Shown here: piece after piece, positions 42,782 through 55,365 of the stretch
Layout of the letters: each line of letters starts with the position of its first letter
How positions within the stretch are numbered: the first letter of the stretch is position 1
NCBI RefSeq assembly: GCF_001263395.1
Contig: NZ_CP011786.1
Span: forward strand, 1,240,001 to 1,304,000
Direction of reading: 5' to 3'
Origin: Bifidobacterium actinocoloniiforme DSM 22766
GTDB lineage: Bacteria > Actinomycetota > Actinomycetes > Actinomycetales > Bifidobacteriaceae
DNA length: 64,000 nt
Notes under the pieces: model-generated
What the model saw: the letters and a program-made list of their open reading frames with translations, nothing else
Database searches by the model: none
What the model was told of the DNA's origin: nothing
Translations under genes and position numbers: made by a program

Positions 42782-44788
42782 ATGGACAATCAGGAGTACA
42801 ACTCAATAGTCAGCTTCATATGGGGAATCGCGGATGATTGCCTTCGCGATGTGTACGTTCGCGGCAAATACCGTGATGTCATCCTCCCGATGACAGTCAT
42901 CCGTCGCCTTGACGCAATGCTCAAGGAAACGAAACCAGCGGTGCTTGAAAGGAAGAAACAACTGGACGCCGCGAAGATCGACAATCAGTGGCCCGCACTG
43001 TGCAATGAAGCCGGGCAGGCATTCTGTAACGCATCTCCATTCCTGCTAAAGGACCTCACAAGTCGGGGAAAGAAGCAGACACTCGAAGCGGACTTCAAGG
43101 CATACCTGGACGGGTTCTCCCCGAATGTTCAAGAGATTCTCGACAAGTTCAAGTTCCGCGACCAGATCAGAACGATGGTCGACGCGGACATCCTCGGCGC
43201 GGTCATCAACAAGTTCACCTCAGCAGATATCAATCTCAGTCCGAATCCAATCTATAAGGACGCGGAGAAGAAGATCGTCAAGCTCCCTGGGCTCGATAAC
43301 CATGGCATGGGAACCATCTTTGAGGAACTCATCCGCCGTTTCAATGAAGAGAACAACGAGGAAGCGGGCGAACACTGGACCCCGCGTGACGTCGTCGAAC
43401 TCATGGCCGATTTGGCATTCTATCCGGTCAAGAATAAGATCAAGGACGCTACCTATTCTTGCTATGACGGGGCATGCGGCACAGGTGGAATGCTCACGGT
43501 AGCGCAGTCACGGCTCCTGACGCTCGCGGGCAATCGCGGCAAGAACGTCTCGATCCACCTGTTCGGGCAGGAGGTCAACCCGGAGACATATGCAATCTGC
43601 AAGGCGGATATGCTCCTGAAAGGCGACGGTGAGGAAGCCGAGCACATTATCTATGGATCAACACTGTCGTTCGATGGGAATCCTTCACGGCAGTTTGACT
43701 TCATGCTCTCCAATCCTCCCTATGGGAAGAGTTGGAAAACGGATGCTGACAAGATGGGTGGAAAGAACGAGATCCTCGACACCCGCTTCGACGCATATCT
43801 TTCGGATGGCGAAGAACTGAAGATGATTCCGCGCACAAGCGACGGGCAGCTCCTCTTCCTATTGAATAACGTGTCAAAGATGAAAACGGACACAGAACTC
43901 GGCAGCCGCATCATCGAAGTCCATAACGGCTCGTCCCTGTTCACCGGTGGCGCCGGGAGCGGTGAGAGCAACGCCCGTCGGTACATGATTGAGCACGACC
44001 TCGTCGAAGCAATCATCGCATTACCGGACAACATGTTCTACAACACCGGCATCGGTACATATATCTGGGTTCTTTCCAACAAGAAAGACGACCGCCGCAG
44101 GGGAAAGATCCAGCTTATCGACGCAACAAACATGAAATCCTCGTTGCGCAAGAACATGGGCAACAAGAACTGCGAGTTTACACCAGAGATCCGCAAGGAA
44201 ATCGTCCGCATTTTTCTCGACATGGAAGAAAGCAACATCAGTAAAATCTTCGACAACAGTGAGTTTGGCTACTGGAACGTGACAGTTGAGCGGCCTCTAC
44301 GCCTCCGAGTATTCCCGGAGAGAGAGATTCCGGAAAACGCCTTCAAGAAACAAGCTGATTTGGACACTATCAGGAAAGCTATATCAGGTGTTCCTGTAAG
44401 TACACCACATGATGATTGGGATACCTTTGCTGACGCAACAGAGCTTAAGAAAACGCAGCTGAAGAAGATCCGCCCATATATCACGGAAACGGACCCCAGA
44501 GCGAAAGAGGTAGAAGGGGAATCCGATCAGGAACTCCGCGACTCTGAGATTATTCCGTTCAACTATGAGGGCGGCATCGAGGCCTTCATCGATAAAGAAG
44601 TCAAACCCTATGCTCCAGATGCCTATGTAGACAAGAGCAAGACAAAGATCGGCTACGAAATAAGCTTCACGAAGTATTTTTACGAGCCGGTAAAGCTGCG
44701 TGACATGAAAGACATCCTCGCTTCTCTTGCTGAACTGGAAAAGGAATCGGACGGTGTAATTGACGAGATCATAAAGGGGCTGAAGTGA
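42782..44788 (+). CDS. hsdM: Type I restriction-modification DNA methyltransferase subunit
   Basis: The 668-residue N6-adenine methyltransferase has an N-terminal HsdM helical domain (IVSFIWGIADDCLRDVYVRGKYRDVILPM), the SAM motif DGACGTGG (residues 229-236) and the catalytic motif NPPYG (311-315). The frame is open 57 codons upstream, but GGAGAG precedes ATG 42782 and the family begins there. With HsdS it methylates an asymmetric target. Its TGA overlaps the hsdS ATG by one base. GC is clearly lower than in the core genome, suggesting acquisition. Confidence 0.95.
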   Translation: MDNQEYNSIVSFIWGIADDCLRDVYVRGKYRDVILPMTVIRRLDAMLKETKPAVLERKKQLDAAKIDNQWPALCNEAGQAFCNASPFLLKDLTSRGKKQTLEADFKAYLDGFSPNVQEILDKFKFRDQIRTMVDADILGAVINKFTSADINLSPNPIYKDAEKKIVKLPGLDNHGMGTIFEELIRRFNEENNEEAGEHWTPRDVVELMADLAFYPVKNKIKDATYSCYDGACGTGGMLTVAQSRLLTLAGNRGKNVSIHLFGQEVNPETYAICKADMLLKGDGEEAEHIIYGSTLSFDGNPSRQFDFMLSNPPYGKSWKTDADKMGGKNEILDTRFDAYLSDGEELKMIPRTSDGQLLFLLNNVSKMKTDTELGSRIIEVHNGSSLFTGGAGSGESNARRYMIEHDLVEAIIALPDNMFYNTGIGTYIWVLSNKKDDRRRGKIQLIDATNMKSSLRKNMGNKNCEFTPEIRKEIVRIFLDMEESNISKIFDNSEFGYWNVTVERPLRLRVFPEREIPENAFKKQADLDTIRKAISGVPVSTPHDDWDTFADATELKKTQLKKIRPYITETDPRAKEVEGESDQELRDSEIIPFNYEGGIEAFIDKEVKPYAPDAYVDKSKTKIGYEISFTKYFYEPVKLRDMKDILASLAELEKESDGVIDEIIKGLK

Positions 44789-46053
44789 TGACACCATTCG
44801 CCCATACGGACAGATGGTCTTCTCAAAGGCTTGGATTACTGTTTCAAGAGCAGAAAGAAAAGAACACTGACTTTTCAAGGAAGACTGCACTAAAATTCGT
44901 CTATGGATCGATAGAAGAAAAACCAGAATATAAGATTAATGCTTCACTCGTGGACACTTATTCCAAGTATACAAAAGTTAATACCGGTGACATCATTATC
45001 AATTGTTTGAACCTGAATTACGATTTTGCCTCTCAGCGGGTCGCGATTGTGAAAGAAAATGGCATTATCACTTCTGCATACATCAGCCTGAGGGCAAGAA
45101 CTTCGGAAGTTAATCCCACATACTATTGTTATTACTTCAAAGCTATGGATTCCAAAAAGATGCTCCATGGAATGGGGACAGGCATTCGACTGACTCTTTC
45201 TTACAACGAATTAAGGAATATATCTGTCCCTGTTCCTTCCCACGCGGAACAGGACCAGATCGTGCGATTTCTCGACTGGAAGGTTTCGGAGATCCGGAAA
45301 ATAATATTGTCTAAAAGAAATTCGTTGCACTTACTTACGGAATTAATCAAAACTGCGTTTGCTTCTCTTATTGCTGAGTCAACTGAGAAAGTGCGGTTGA
45401 AGCGAGTGGTATCGCTTGATAACGATTTTATGGAAATTGACCCAAATGATTATTATCAGAAAGCTGGTATGTATAACCGCGGAAGGGGAATCTTCTTACG
45501 CAAACCAGTTAAGGGCTCTGACATGGGTGATTCTAAGTTTCAACACATCTATAGAAACCGGTTGATGATCAGTGGACAATTTGCATGGGAAGATGCGGTT
45601 TTTGTCACTGACGATAAGGATGAGCAAGGACTAGCTTCACATCGATATTATCTATTGAAAAGTCAAAGTACTGATGTTCCGGTGGAATACCTATTTGGAT
45701 ATTTTATATCTCAAAAAGGACTGGCAGATTTGCAAATATGCTCGCACGGTTCAGCAGGCAGAAATCGCCCTCTGAACATAAATGAGTTGCTCAGAGTCGA
45801 AATTCCGATAGTACATAACACAGAGGCAATTTCGAGATTTTGTAAACTGATACGTTCATATATAAAAATGCGCCCATTGGTATTAAAAGAAGAAGAAACA
45901 TTAGAAGAGCTTCAAAATAAGATCATTACCGATGTCGTCACAGGAAAAATCGATATCCGTGATATCACTGTTCCCGAATATGAACATGCTGACGATATCA
46001 TCAAGAACGGAAATACTGATGAAAACAATAACGCTATTGATCAGGAGGCGTAA
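44788..46053 (+). CDS. hsdS: Type I restriction-modification specificity subunit
   Basis: The 421-residue protein has two target-recognition domains separated by a coiled-coil conserved region (PVPSHAEQDQIVRFLDWKVSEIRKIILSKRNSLHLLTELI) and ends with a second one (EEETLEELQNKIITDVVTGKIDIRDI). ATG 44788 forms TGATG with the hsdM stop; AAGGGG lies 8-9 nt upstream. A GTG one codon earlier is possible. It is the most A+T-rich gene of the operon, as usual for variable HsdS. No inverted second hsdS for shuffling is present. Confidence 0.93.
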   Translation: MTPFAHTDRWSSQRLGLLFQEQKEKNTDFSRKTALKFVYGSIEEKPEYKINASLVDTYSKYTKVNTGDIIINCLNLNYDFASQRVAIVKENGIITSAYISLRARTSEVNPTYYCYYFKAMDSKKMLHGMGTGIRLTLSYNELRNISVPVPSHAEQDQIVRFLDWKVSEIRKIILSKRNSLHLLTELIKTAFASLIAESTEKVRLKRVVSLDNDFMEIDPNDYYQKAGMYNRGRGIFLRKPVKGSDMGDSKFQHIYRNRLMISGQFAWEDAVFVTDDKDEQGLASHRYYLLKSQSTDVPVEYLFGYFISQKGLADLQICSHGSAGRNRPLNINELLRVEIPIVHNTEAISRFCKLIRSYIKMRPLVLKEEETLEELQNKIITDVVTGKIDIRDITVPEYEHADDIIKNGNTDENNNAIDQEA

Positions 46054-46055
46054 TC

Positions 46056-49049
46056 ATGGCCTTTACAGATAAAACTGAAGAAGGCTTTGAGACGATTATT
46101 GTGAACTGGCTCGTGGGCCAGAATGGCTATGAGCAAGGGACGAATGGCGACTACAGTAACGAGTATGCTCTCGACGAGACGCGTCTTTTCCGCTTTCTGA
46201 ATGACACACAGCCAAAGAAGATGGAAATGCTGGGTGTGAACAATAGTGACCAGAAAAAGAGGCTGTTCCTCAACCGTCTCTCCAGAGAAATCACCAAGCA
46301 AGGCATTATCAAAGTGCTGCGCAATGGCATGGAGATGTACCCTGCGAACCACATTGAGCTGTTCTACCTGACACCGAGCGAGAACAATGGGACGGCTGAG
46401 GAGCTGTTCCAGAAGAATAGTTTCAGCGTAATACGACAACTCAGATACTCTTCGGATGCTACCAAACTTGCTCTGGATCTGTGTATTTTTATCAATGGCC
46501 TGCCGATCATCACGATTGAGCTCAAGAACCATTTCACCGGGCAAACGACATCAGATGCAGTGGAGCAGTACAAGGAAGATCGAAATCCCAGAGATATCCT
46601 CTTCTCTTTCAAGCGATGCATGGTACATCTCGCTGTTGATGACCAGACGATCATGTTCTGCACCAAACTGTCAGGCAAGGACAGCTGGTTCCTGCCTTTC
46701 AACAAGGGCTACAATGACGGAGCAGGCAATCCACCGAATCCGGACGGCATCATGACGGACTACCTTTGGAAGGACATCCTGACCAAATGTAAACTCTCGC
46801 GCATCATCGAAAACTATGCGCAGGTAGTGGACGATGAGGACCATGACACGAAGAAGAAAACCGAGAAGCAGATATGGCCGCGCTACCATCAATTGGATTG
46901 CGTGGAGAAGCTGCTGGCAGATGTGAAAGAGAACGGCGTCGGCAAGCGGTATCTCATCCAGCACAGCGCGGGTTCCGGTAAATCGAACTCCATTGCATGG
47001 CTTGCCTACCAGCTGATTGGACTAGAGCAGAATGGTCATCCGATGATCGACTCGGTCATCGTCGTTACTGATCGCAAGATCCTCGACAAGCAGATTCGCG
47101 ACACGATTAATCAGTTCATGCAGGTAAAGAACACCGTTGTGTGGGCGGAGCATTCCGGCGGCCTAAAGAAGGCGATTGAAGATGGCAGGCGAATCATCAT
47201 CACTACAGTTGAGAAGTTCCCATTCATCTCGCAGGAAATTGGGCAGGATCACATCAACAACAAGTTCGCCATCATCATTGATGAAGCGCATTCCGGCCAG
47301 AGTGGCCGAAACGCCGCGAATATGAATCTCGCGCTTTCGGGCATGGCTTCTGACAGTACAGTGGACAACGAAGACAAGATCAATGCCATTGTCGAGGGGC
47401 GAAAACTTGTGAAGACCGCGAGCTACTTTGCCTTCACAGCCACGCCAAAGAATAAGACAGAGGAAGTTTTCGGCAGCCCATACGAAGAGGACGGCGCTAT
47501 CAAACACAGGCCCTTCCACGTCTATACGATGAAGCAGGCGATCCAGGAAGGCTTCATTCTTGACGTTCTGAAGAACTACACGACCGTCGACAGCTGGTAC
47601 AAGATCGCTAAGAAGGTCGAGGACGATCCGATGTTCGACAAGAAACGCGCTCGGAAGAAGCTCCGTTCCTTCGTAGAAGGCAATCCGGATGTCATCACCA
47701 AGAAGGCCGCCATGATGGTGGATCATTTCCACGAGCAGATCATCGCCAAGAAAAAGCTCAACGGGAAATCACGCGCTATGGTTGTGACCGCCAGCATTCC
47801 CCGTTGCATAGAGACCTATTACTCTATCAACAAAAGTCTGGCTGAGCGTCACAGCCCATACAAAGCAATCATTGCATTCTCCGGAGAATGCAAGTACAAC
47901 GGGCAGGAGCCCGCTCTGACATCTTCTGAAATGAACGGATTCTCTAACATGAAGATACCAGAGGAGTTCAAGAAGGATCCCTATAGGCTTCTTGTTGTCG
48001 CGGACATGTTCCAGACGGGATTCGACGAGCCATTGCTCCAGACGATGTACGTGGACAAGCCGCTCTACGATATAGCAGCTGTACAAACCTTGTCCAGGTT
48101 GAACAGAGCGTGCCCAGGCAAGGATGAAGTCTATGTGCTGGATTTTGCCAACAAGACAGCGACGATCGAGGAAGCGTTCTCGAAGTTCTACCGGACTACC
48201 ATCCTTTCCAGCGAAACGAACCCGGACAAGCTTCACGATCTGATAAATGTCATAGAAAGCTATCAGGTATACGACAGTGATGACGTGGAACACGTTGTTG
48301 ACCTGTTCCTTAACGGCGCTGAGCGGGATCGGCTTGACCCGCTGCTTGACCCATGTGTCTCCGTATACAACGAGCTGGAAGTGGATGATCAGATTGAGTT
48401 CAAGAGCGCGGCAAAGTCATTTGTGCGCACTTACGGATTCCTTGGTTCCATTCTCCCTTATGGGAACGTGGAGTGGGAGAGGCGGTCCATTTTCCTGAAC
48501 CTCCTGATTCCGAAGCTTCCGTCACCGTGCGAGGGCGACCTATCAGAAGGAATTCTGTCCGCAATTGACCTGGACAGCTATCGCAATGAAGCGCAGGGGG
48601 CGGTAGATATCAAGCTTGAGGACGAGGACGCGGAAATAGACCCGGTTCCCGCCGGGATAGTGGGTCATATCACCGAACCGGAGTTGGATCCGCTATCGGA
48701 GATTATCTCTGAATTCAACGACCTGTTCGGAAACATCCAGTGGAATGACGCAGACAACGCGCAAAGACAGATCCTTCAGATTCCGACCATGGTATCGCGA
48801 GACAAGAAGTACCAGAACGCCATGCGAAATTCAGATGAGCAAGAGGCCCGGACCGAAAGCGAACGTGCCCTACAGAATGTCATCTTTTCTATCATGTCAG
48901 ACAACATGGAATTGTTTAAGCAGTTCCAAGACAATTCATCATTCAAGAAATGGTTGACCAACATGGTGTTCAACCAGACATACAACAAGCAAGGCAAACC
49001 ACTCGAAGCGCCGGACAACGTTCCACAAGTAGAAAGGCAAACCGACTAA
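46056..49049 (+). CDS. hsdR: Type I restriction endonuclease subunit
   Basis: The 997-residue motor/nuclease has an N-terminal PD-(D/E)xK nuclease (D141, E155, K157 in LALDLCIFINGLPIITIELK-type sequence), Walker A AGSGKSN (305-311), DEAH box (409-412), FTATPK, and a C-terminal helical domain ending NMELFKQFQDNSSFKKWLTNMVF. It starts 2 bp after hsdS with GGAGG upstream. All key motifs are intact, so the system may be active. Its C-terminal family differs from the HsdR remnant at 49563-50012. Confidence 0.95.
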   Translation: MAFTDKTEEGFETIIVNWLVGQNGYEQGTNGDYSNEYALDETRLFRFLNDTQPKKMEMLGVNNSDQKKRLFLNRLSREITKQGIIKVLRNGMEMYPANHIELFYLTPSENNGTAEELFQKNSFSVIRQLRYSSDATKLALDLCIFINGLPIITIELKNHFTGQTTSDAVEQYKEDRNPRDILFSFKRCMVHLAVDDQTIMFCTKLSGKDSWFLPFNKGYNDGAGNPPNPDGIMTDYLWKDILTKCKLSRIIENYAQVVDDEDHDTKKKTEKQIWPRYHQLDCVEKLLADVKENGVGKRYLIQHSAGSGKSNSIAWLAYQLIGLEQNGHPMIDSVIVVTDRKILDKQIRDTINQFMQVKNTVVWAEHSGGLKKAIEDGRRIIITTVEKFPFISQEIGQDHINNKFAIIIDEAHSGQSGRNAANMNLALSGMASDSTVDNEDKINAIVEGRKLVKTASYFAFTATPKNKTEEVFGSPYEEDGAIKHRPFHVYTMKQAIQEGFILDVLKNYTTVDSWYKIAKKVEDDPMFDKKRARKKLRSFVEGNPDVITKKAAMMVDHFHEQIIAKKKLNGKSRAMVVTASIPRCIETYYSINKSLAERHSPYKAIIAFSGECKYNGQEPALTSSEMNGFSNMKIPEEFKKDPYRLLVVADMFQTGFDEPLLQTMYVDKPLYDIAAVQTLSRLNRACPGKDEVYVLDFANKTATIEEAFSKFYRTTILSSETNPDKLHDLINVIESYQVYDSDDVEHVVDLFLNGAERDRLDPLLDPCVSVYNELEVDDQIEFKSAAKSFVRTYGFLGSILPYGNVEWERRSIFLNLLIPKLPSPCEGDLSEGILSAIDLDSYRNEAQGAVDIKLEDEDAEIDPVPAGIVGHITEPELDPLSEIISEFNDLFGNIQWNDADNAQRQILQIPTMVSRDKKYQNAMRNSDEQEARTESERALQNVIFSIMSDNMELFKQFQDNSSFKKWLTNMVFNQTYNKQGKPLEAPDNVPQVERQTD

Positions 49050-49562: not shown

Positions 49563-50012
49563 GTACTTTATCTACCTCTTCGTGAACACTCTCAGGCTGC
49601 AGACATCCTCAACAGCTTCAATGACTTCGTAGGCACCGAGATCAATAAGGCTGTCTCGGCAAGCCCCTCCCTGCGCAACAAGAAGGACCTGATCGACGAT
49701 TTCGTCGACACAGTTTCGATGAAGGGGACCGTGGATGACCAATGGCGGGAGTTCATCGACCATAGACGCGATGAGGAATTACAGACCATCATCAGAGAGG
49801 AAGGACTCAAACTCCAGCCGACTGAACGGTTCATGGACGAGGCATTCCGCGATGGATTATTGCAGACCAGCGGCACGGCGATCACCACCATTCTTCCACC
49901 TGTGTCCAGGTTCATCTCTCAAGGCGGTCATGGCGAAAAGAAGCAACAGGTAATCGACAAACTATCCAGATTCTTCGGACGATTCAGAGGATTAGGGGAA
50001 AACCAGGACTAG
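49563..50012 (+). pseudogene. C-terminal remnant of a second, unrelated HsdR
   Basis: About 148 codons continue to a TAG at 50012. They read FNDFVGTEINKAVSASPSL, KKDLIDDFVDTVS, VDDQWREFIDHRRDEELQTI, EEGLKLQPTERFMDEAFRDG and TAITTILPPVSRF, then KKQQVIDKLSRFFGRFRGL. This is the conserved C-terminal domain of the EcoR124-type HsdR branch, not a duplication of the intact hsdR nearby. No start, nuclease or motor domain is present. It indicates replacement of one type I system by another. The following 50013-50336 shows no feature. Confidence 0.75.
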
Positions 50013-50336: not shown

Positions 50337-50693
50337 TCACTGCTTCTCCAACATGCCGAGATACACCTGTATCTTCTGATCCAGGAAGCCCATCTGCTCC
50401 TGCAATTCCTTCATCCTGGCCTCAAGTGCGCCACGATGCTTGTAGAGCATTTCCAGACGCTGCGGAACGGTTGAGTCGCCCTCATGCCTGAGTCGGGCAT
50501 ACTCCTGAACCTGGGCCAGGGGCATACCGGTCGCCAGCAATCTCTGGACGAAGGCTATCCACGCCAGGTCCTGCTCCATGTAGTCCCGATACCACTCCGG
50601 CGAGCGCCCGGGCCGGATGATTCCCCTCCGTTCGTAATATCGAAACGTGGATATGGGAAGCCCCACTCTTTCCGATACCTGCCCGATTCTCAT
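50337..50693 (-). CDS. MerR-family transcriptional regulator
   Basis: The 118-residue protein starts with the MerR winged HTH (MRIGQVSERVGLPISTFRYYERRGIIRPGRSPEWYRDY), then a dimerisation coiled coil (EMLYKHRGALEARMKELQEQMGFLDQKIQVYLGML). There are no Cys metal ligands, so it is of the organic-ligand or redox-insensitive type. GGAGGTGAAC precedes ATG 50693. It is divergent from a carboxymuconolactone-decarboxylase-family gene and surely controls it through the operator between them. Confidence 0.9.
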   Translation of the reverse strand: MRIGQVSERVGLPISTFRYYERRGIIRPGRSPEWYRDYMEQDLAWIAFVQRLLATGMPLAQVQEYARLRHEGDSTVPQRLEMLYKHRGALEARMKELQEQMGFLDQKIQVYLGMLEKQ

Positions 50694-50705
50694 GTTCACC
50701 TCCAC

Positions 50706-50736
50706 TTGCCCTGAACCATGGTTCATACTTTACGCT
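50706..50736 (+). promoter_or_regulatory. MerR-type promoter with 19-bp spacer and central palindrome
   Basis: TTGCCC (50706-50711) and TACGCT (50731-50736) are separated by 19 bp. The spacer begins with the perfect 14-bp palindrome TGAACCATGGTTCA (50712-50725). An over-long spacer carrying the operator is the hallmark of promoters untwisted by MerR proteins. Confidence 0.7.
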
Positions 50737-50773
50737 CAGAATCATTCAATCTTCTACCGAAAAGGAGCAGGCT

Positions 50774-51172
50774 ATGGCGGAGTCACGATTCGAGCGAGGT
50801 TCAAGGATACTGGCATCGATCGATGGAGAGGGCGGTCAGGCGGTTGTCGAATCCCTGCAGGACATTGCGCCCGACCTGGGCAAGTGGATCGTCGAGTTCG
50901 CCTTTGGCGACGTGTATGCCGACCCGACCCTGGACGCACGGCAGCGGGAACTGGTCACCTTGGGCAGCCTGGTGACCCAGGGAGATACCACTCCCCAGCT
51001 CAGGGTGCATATAGCCGCTGCCCTGCATGTGGGCCTCACCAAGTCGGAGGTGGTTCAGGCCGTTCTCCAGACGGCTCCCTATGTAGGTTTCCCCAGGGTC
51101 ATCAACGCCGTCAACGTTGCCAGGGAAGTCTTCCGGAATCAAGAGGCCGGTGACGCACCCACCCAAAGCTGA
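50774..51172 (+). CDS. Carboxymuconolactone decarboxylase family protein
   Basis: The 132-residue protein matches the CMD family (TLDARQRELVTLGSLVTQGDTTPQLRVHIAAALHVGLTKSEVVQAVLQTAPYVGFPRVINAV). It lacks the AhpD CxxC pair, so peroxidase activity is not expected; it resembles gamma-carboxymuconolactone decarboxylase-like proteins of unknown substrate. GGAGC lies upstream of ATG 50774. It is controlled by the divergent MerR gene and converges on the amidotransferase gene 12 bp away. Confidence 0.85.
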   Translation: MAESRFERGSRILASIDGEGGQAVVESLQDIAPDLGKWIVEFAFGDVYADPTLDARQRELVTLGSLVTQGDTTPQLRVHIAAALHVGLTKSEVVQAVLQTAPYVGFPRVINAVNVAREVFRNQEAGDAPTQS

Positions 51173-54477: not shown

Positions 54478-55365
54478 ACATTGCGAAAGTCACAGTGGCC
54501 GGCGGTGGTGTTGCCGGGGAGCCAGATCACCTTCCAATCAGCCTTCAAGGGCAAGAAAGTTACCGTTTACGAGATCAATGACGACGCCGTTGCAGCAGCG
54601 GAGAAGCGCATCGGGGCCAGGTGGGATGCCTATAAGCACGACGCCAATGCCACCGACGAACAGTTCGATGCCGGTCTGAAGAATCTGAACTACACAGCTG
54701 ATATGGCCGAAGCCGTCAAAGATGCTGACCTCGTCATCGAAGCCGTTCCGGAGTAACTGACCATCAAGCATCACTTCTACCAGAACCTCGCCAAACTGAC
54801 GCCAGTAGGGACCATCTTCGCCAGCAATTCATCGACCTATGCGCCCATCGTCTTCGCGCCGGACACCGGCAGACCAGACAAGTTCCTCAACCTCCGCTTC
54901 GCCAACAAGGTCTGGCTCTACAACACCGCGGAAATCATGGGCACCGACCAGACCGACCCCCAGGTCTTCCAGACGGTCGTCGAATGCGCCAAGGAAATCG
55001 GCATGGTTCCAATCATCCTCAAGAAGGAGCAACCCTGTTACGTTCTCAGCACCCTGCTGATTCCGCTTCTGAACGTGGCAGGTTACCTCTGGGGCCACGA
55101 CATCGCCGACCCGGAGACCATCGACAGGACCTGGATGATCACCACCGGAGCCTCCACCGGCCCCTTCGGCATCTTCGATACGGTTGGGCTGCGCACCGCT
55201 TTGAATATCACAACGGAACAGCAGGGCAGCAGCCCTGATTTCAAGCCGTTCCTGGACAAAATCCAAAAGATAATCGACGCGAATAAGGTTGGCATCGAGA
55301 CAGGCCAGGGCTTCTACCAGTATCCGAATCCCGAGTTCGAGAACCCCGACTTCCTGAAAGCCTGA
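54478..55365 (+). pseudogene. 3-hydroxyacyl-CoA dehydrogenase, broken
   Basis: The Rossmann start AKVTVAGGGV shifts frame at the G4 run 54516-54519 into GSQITFQSAFKGKKVTVYEI. The reading continues DLVIEAVPE to an in-frame TAA at 54754-54756, then without break TIFASNSSTYAP, FANKVWLYNTAEIMGT, KKEQPCYVLSTLLIPLL, ETIDRTWMITTGASTGPFGI and GFYQYPNPEFENPDFLKA. The full protein would be about 295 residues, the size of 3-hydroxybutyryl-CoA-type dehydrogenases common in lactobacilli and bifidobacteria. No intact start codon is evident. Confidence 0.8.

Follow-up and report, generated by a model that had tools for sequence, protein, structure and literature searches.

Do the bases between two divergent genes of Bifidobacterium actinocoloniiforme DSM 22766, one for a MerR-family regulator and one for a carboxymuconolactone decarboxylase (CMD)-family protein, form a regulatory switch, and if so, what might it sense? 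The two genes lie in the window, the whole 64-kb stretch of DNA analysed here, and are separated by an 80-bp gap (merR ATG at 50693, minus strand; CMD ATG at 50774, plus strand). The first-pass annotation had described, within an 80-bp divergent gap, a 19-bp spacer holding a perfect 14-bp palindrome between TTGCCC and TACGCT. Direct reading of the coordinates confirmed each of these elements, with the palindrome TGAACCATGGTTCA inside the spacer at 50712-50730 (Table 1).

Promoter anatomy between merR and the CMD gene

Table 1. Features of the merR-CMD region, in window coordinates
Feature	Position	Strand	Basis
merR, MerR-family regulator, 118 aa, NmlR-like, no cysteine, no separate sensor domain	50337..50693	-	profiles, predicted structure
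merR ribosome-binding site GGAGG	50699..50703	-	read directly
-35 element TTGCCC, CMD promoter	50706..50711	+	read directly; TTGC invariant in 12/12 homologous sites
Predicted MerR operator, perfect palindrome TGAACCATGGTTCA	50712..50725	.	mean pairwise identity 0.904 over 12 sites
Candidate merR -10 TATGAA, overlaps operator	50722..50727	-	TATGAA in 11/12 sites; weak
-10 element TACGCT, 19 bp from -35	50731..50736	+	TANNNT at 19 bp in 12/12 sites
CMD gene ribosome-binding site AGGAG	50763..50767	+	read directly
CMD-family protein, 132 aa, no cysteine	50774..51172	+	Pfam, profiles, structure matches

The mechanical list of open reading frames places the first ATG of merR at 50726; the start at 50693 was adopted instead because that ATG is preceded by GGAGG and is the point from which the MerR family profile aligns. 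In the CMD direction, agreement of the -10 element with the TATAAT consensus is modest (mean of 3.17 of 6 matches over the 12 homologous sites described below). TANNNT is also found at a 14-bp spacing in 11 of these sites. This is less than a normal promoter would allow, and the motif appears there because it overlaps the conserved TA and the true -10. No conserved -35 element was found in the merR direction across the 12 sites, and the candidate merR -10 is therefore considered weak.

Perfect palindromes of 14 bp occur 14 times in the 64-kb window, and thus TGAACCATGGTTCA is not significant by itself. Of the 14, it alone is immediately preceded by TTGNNN and has TANNNT at 19-bp spacing. The combination TTGNNN-19-TANNNT has 10 occurrences in the window, counting both strands, as compared with 11 for a 17-bp spacing. 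Evidence from the single window is suggestive only; conservation across species, as judged from aligned sites, is what lifts the predicted promoter and operator above chance.

Elsewhere in the window, a perfect 14-bp palindrome, TGAACATATGTTCA, at 1680-1693 overlaps the start (1687) of an open reading frame resembling SorC/DeoR-type sugar regulators, which adjoins a phosphotriesterase-like frame (456-1445); these family names come from reading the sequences, and TGAACATATGTTCA may be the regulator-like frame's own operator. The window also contains a type I restriction system (HsdS-like, 44785-46053; HsdR, 46056-49049, with HSDR_N and SWI2_SNF2), after which comes an orphan fragment from the C-terminus of another HsdR (49719-50012, EcoR124_C), likely the remnant of a second restriction system. 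A 3-hydroxyacyl-CoA dehydrogenase-like gene (54481-55365) is split by a single in-frame stop, its halves sharing one frame (N-terminal domain, 54481-54756; C-terminal domain, 54937-55365).

Conservation of the operator with its regulator

A profile built from five MerR orthologues was applied to 189 Bifidobacteriaceae genomes. Eleven close members (at least 158 bits; the next group scores 97 bits) were found in 10 of the genomes, both copies from the window's genome included, and every one faces a site that departs from TGAACCNNGGTTCA at no more than one position, always with 19-bp spacing. The promoter pattern TTGCNNTGAACCNNGGTTCANNNNNTA, run on the same 189 genomes with at most one mismatch allowed, matched 13 places in 11 genomes, whereas the reversed pattern used as a control matched none. 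Twelve of the 13 matches lie at merR/CMD loci, 11 of them facing MerR and one facing a MerR remnant. The thirteenth, in genome G113, belongs to an unrelated promoter, where it falls on one arm of an inverted repeat. At that locus (G113:C11:611081, L122), inverted repeats AACCGAAGTTCAA / TTGAACTTCGGTT stand before a reading frame that fuses HTH and aminotransferase-like parts, and they look like the operator of that regulator.

Of the 12 sites at merR/CMD loci, 8 are exact and 4 carry one mismatch. Mean pairwise identity was 0.904 over the 14-bp palindrome, as opposed to 0.335 and 0.341 in the flanks. The last T of the -10 element, which lies outside the search pattern, was present in all 12 sites; the invariance of TTGC is partly built in, as the search pattern itself favoured it. 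The sites are also partly redundant (G124, G131 and G064 are nearly identical, likewise G016 and G005a), and by inspection they amount to about eight or nine independent observations.

A search for more sites in the genome had been proposed as a check, and it turned up a second merR-CMD pair. Five places in the 1.83-Mb genome match the operator with at most two mismatches. One of these, at C1:156516, reads TGAACCCTGGTTCA and separates a second merR (67% identical to the window copy) from a second CMD gene (81% identical), in a promoter with the same TTGCCC and the same 19-bp spacing. A further exact TGAACCNNGGTTCA match, the third in the genome, is at C1:943333 inside a reading frame that we take, from reading its sequence, to be methionine aminopeptidase-like, and it is probably due to chance. 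Neither this genome search nor the family-wide pattern search found targets beyond the merR-CMD pair.

The 189 genomes hold 24 intact close CMD orthologues, in 23 genomes. The site accompanies all 9 orthologues whose genomes keep an intact close MerR; eight of them face MerR directly and the ninth is in genome G005. None of the 15 in genomes without an intact close MerR has it, the best candidates within 300 bp showing 3 to 5 mismatches of 12. A split of 9/9 versus 0/15 would arise by chance with a probability of about 8e-7 (calculated by hand) on the assumption of independent genomes, which does not hold here.

Split and decayed copies are informative in the same respect. In G005, one locus retains the CMD gene and operator with merR present only as a remnant, and a second locus retains MerR and operator facing an apparent remnant of a CMD start (a weak match, E 2.4); if both genes are expressed, regulation would have to act in trans. 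In G064, the sequence of which is that of Bifidobacterium commune (L070), only the first codons of the CMD gene remain. G041 has a stop in merR, a frame change in the CMD gene and one mismatch in the site, lesions that could be explained by sequencing error. To judge from these sequences, such copies form the pattern that would be expected if the site matters only together with its regulator.

Taken together, the exact 19-bp spacing in 12/12 sites with diverged flanks, the joint retention and loss of regulator and site, and the second pair with the same site in the genome support the proposal in the first-pass annotation that this is a MerR-type promoter. On these comparisons, we take TGAACCATGGTTCA to be the MerR operator of that promoter.

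In a wider sample of 394 genomes from the class, only the window's own genome and G420 passed E 1e-30 for MerR. The G420 gene has another palindrome, GTTGGAGCGCGCTCCAAC, and nothing in the stretch read around it matched CMD. Among 84,980 species genomes, close MerR relatives (51% or more) were found only in Bifidobacteriaceae, by a scan that uses short peptide patterns and misses some relatives; it named Bombiscardovia coagulans, Bifidobacterium commune, Bifidobacterium sp. ESL0784 and a Bifidobacterium MAG. Several of these presumably come from bees. A search of viral contigs for the system found nothing. A Lautropia MAG (L074:3001-3794) carries a merR (45%) and CMD (about 50%) pair oriented in the same direction as each other, with the upstream region partly masked; its MerR has Arg at the place of the NmlR cysteine.

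A cysteine-free regulator and its probable CMD-family target

The Pfam models MerR_1, MerR and MerR-DNA-bind all matched the regulator above their cut-offs. Its predicted model (mean pLDDT 89.6; helices 3-10, 14-22, 40-54, 59-71 and 76-116) has the winged-helix N-terminal DNA-binding domain and long dimerization helix of the MerR family, and its best fold matches are MerR-family structures; DNA-bound HiNmlR is also among the structures matched. The palindrome within a 19-20 bp spacer between -35 and -10, also typical of the family, is found at 50706-50736. The NCBIfam NmlR equivalog was the best-scoring model, yet it reached only 79.7 bits against a cut-off of 175.

Metal-sensing MerR proteins and SoxR use cysteines to bind metal or a 2Fe-2S cluster. 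Models for the former (MerR, CueR, ZntR, CadR) and for SoxR scored far under their cut-offs, and the earlier remark that the regulator has no metal-binding Cys was correct, as the predicted protein has no cysteine at all. NmlR and AdhR are described as relying on one absolutely conserved cysteine, Cys54 and Cys52, respectively (PMC4776306, accessible text). Arg51 aligns at this place in the window's MerR (mapping from the alignment), and Arg occupies it in 11/11 close members, 7 of which have no cysteine anywhere and the other 4 one or two scattered ones. Thiol and soft-metal sensing by this MerR are therefore unlikely. We would guess, with low confidence, that the effector is an organic molecule, small and either reactive or aromatic, or else the substrate of the CMD enzyme itself, and that no cysteine takes part in sensing it.

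The target protein matches the Pfam CMD domain (PF02627) at 74.5 bits, well over the gathering score of 23. Its closest solved relative is 2AF7 (E 2.5e-27, 42% identity). Superposition of its model on 2AF7 by Foldseek gave a modest TM-score of 0.59 and a high rmsd of 4.4, and the kinship therefore rests on the sequence match. The statement that the target lacks the AhpD CxxC also held: the protein is free of cysteine, which excludes an AhpD identity, as AhpD catalysis is described as using Cys130/Cys133 with Glu118, His132 and His137 (PMC3141380, accessible text). Glu59 and His79 are invariant in 8/8 aligned CMD proteins; they probably match Glu118 and His137 of AhpD, and are natural candidates for catalysis.

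A proposed MerR-type switch and its relation to known systems

We consider it highly probable that the pair constitutes a dedicated MerR-type switch, with MerR acting on TGAACCNNGGTTCA in the overlong spacer of the CMD promoter. Genome comparisons strongly support a connection among regulator, site and CMD gene; binding, kinking, induction and autorepression would follow by analogy with the family. MerR promoters are described as having 19-20 bp spacers with a palindrome that binds the dimer, which represses without ligand and activates with ligand by DNA distortion (PMC9909328, accessible text). By this scheme, a homodimer of the 118-aa MerR would bind TGAACCNNGGTTCA within the 19-bp spacer and, without effector, keep the CMD promoter in an inactive form. 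With effector, MerR would bend and untwist the DNA such that RNA polymerase sees normal spacing and the CMD gene is transcribed. The bound protein would also cover the likely merR -10 and so probably limit its own transcription, as suggested by the overlap of TATGAA with the palindrome in 11/12 sites.

That same overlap would suit another arrangement, in which MerR does no more than repress transcription or regulate itself: the site would serve mainly to shut off merR, and the CMD gene would have another promoter. NmlR-like MerR proteins lack a sensor domain (titles of 5D8C, 5D90 and 5E01), and CMD orthologues in 15 genomes do without MerR. However, the 19-bp spacer, TTGC and TANNNT are kept in the CMD direction in 12/12 sites, which is unexpected if only the merR direction mattered, and the merR -35 is not conserved; we regard this arrangement as unlikely. 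The palindrome could also be read as a LexA (SOS) box, since the Gram-positive SOS core, GAAC-N4-GTTC, occurs within TGAACCATGGTTCA. Three SOS-box-like sites, CGAACATTTGTTC, CGAACAGATGTTC and CGAACATTTGTTT, lie about 130-200 bases upstream of lexA in the same genome (L137), and these have A..T inside and C outside, whereas the operator has C..G inside and T/A outside. In addition, the G005b site (TGAATC) breaks the core while MerR is kept, and the site tracks MerR rather than DNA-damage genes. A LexA box was rejected, as the lexA promoter of the same genome carries a different one, and we find this reading scarcely credible.

Another possibility concerns the enzyme: the CMD protein might be a genuine 4-carboxymuconolactone decarboxylase and the switch might sense an intermediate of protocatechuate breakdown. 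The PcaC profile (TIGR02425) does match the protein, and 2AF7 is titled gamma-carboxymuconolactone decarboxylase, but the match, at 62.9 bits, is well under the cut-off of 155.7. Intradiol dioxygenases make the ring-cleaved precursor of the protocatechuate pathway and provide entry to the classical CMD pathway. Their domain (PF00775) was found in 0/27 genomes of the genus, with 4/14 control genomes positive, and PcaB-like matches in the window's own genome were below the cut-off, as in 12/14 controls. Classical decarboxylation by this protein is unlikely because of the PcaC score and the count of 0/27 dioxygenases, and an enzyme and switch of this kind are, in our estimate, very improbable. 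Beyond the dedicated MerR-type switch, a more far-reaching proposal is possible but on balance doubtful: that these proteins form a cysteine-free, NmlR-like MerR branch, found in this analysis in Bifidobacteriaceae alone and having an operator code of its own (TGAACCNNGGTTCA at 19 bp), acting as a private switch for a CMD enzyme by non-thiol sensing of an organic compound, and separable after duplication (in trans in G005).

Several known systems resemble parts of this one. For the CMD protein, the nearest solved relative is from Methanobacterium thermoautotrophicum (2AF7), a structural-genomics entry matched here by sequence. For the regulator, Listeria monocytogenes 3GP4 is both the best solved-structure sequence match (E 1.9e-15) and the best Foldseek match, and in the alignment it likewise lacks a Cys where NmlR has one. 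Haemophilus influenzae NmlR (5D8C, 5D90, 5E01), with structures titled "a MerR family regulator lacking the sensor domain, bound to promoter DNA", shares fold and length and is among the best sequence matches; it differs in its sensing Cys54 (PMC4776306, accessible text), which aligns with Arg51 here, and the Bifidobacterium protein falls far below the NmlR cut-off given above.

Control of a CMD gene by MerR is itself already known, as Bacillus subtilis AdhR (YraB) is described as positively controlling yraC, a gamma-CMD gene (PMC4776306, PMC11577753; accessible text of both). The arrangement is alike in that a MerR-family regulator controls a CMD-family gene. According to the same accessible text, AdhR needs Cys52 and also controls adhA-yraA, whereas the Bifidobacterium MerR has no Cys at that place and the merR-CMD pair stands alone, with TGAACCNNGGTTCA as its palindrome. 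Neither the operator letters, looked for in four forms, nor the combination of MerR, "carboxymuconolactone decarboxylase" and Bifidobacterium was found in the literature searched, which has few subscription papers. What is new relative to AdhR/yraC is thus the absence of cysteine from the regulator, the sequence of the operator and the pairing of merR and CMD gene on their own. As bacterial gene switches go, it is of an ordinary kind, and the general picture of MerR regulation stays unchanged. It nonetheless supplies an operator of defined sequence, together with naturally occurring intact, split and decayed copies, for a MerR branch barred from the thiol chemistry of AdhR and NmlR. The inducer thereby becomes directly testable and, by way of it, so does the substrate of this uncharacterised bifidobacterial CMD-family enzyme.
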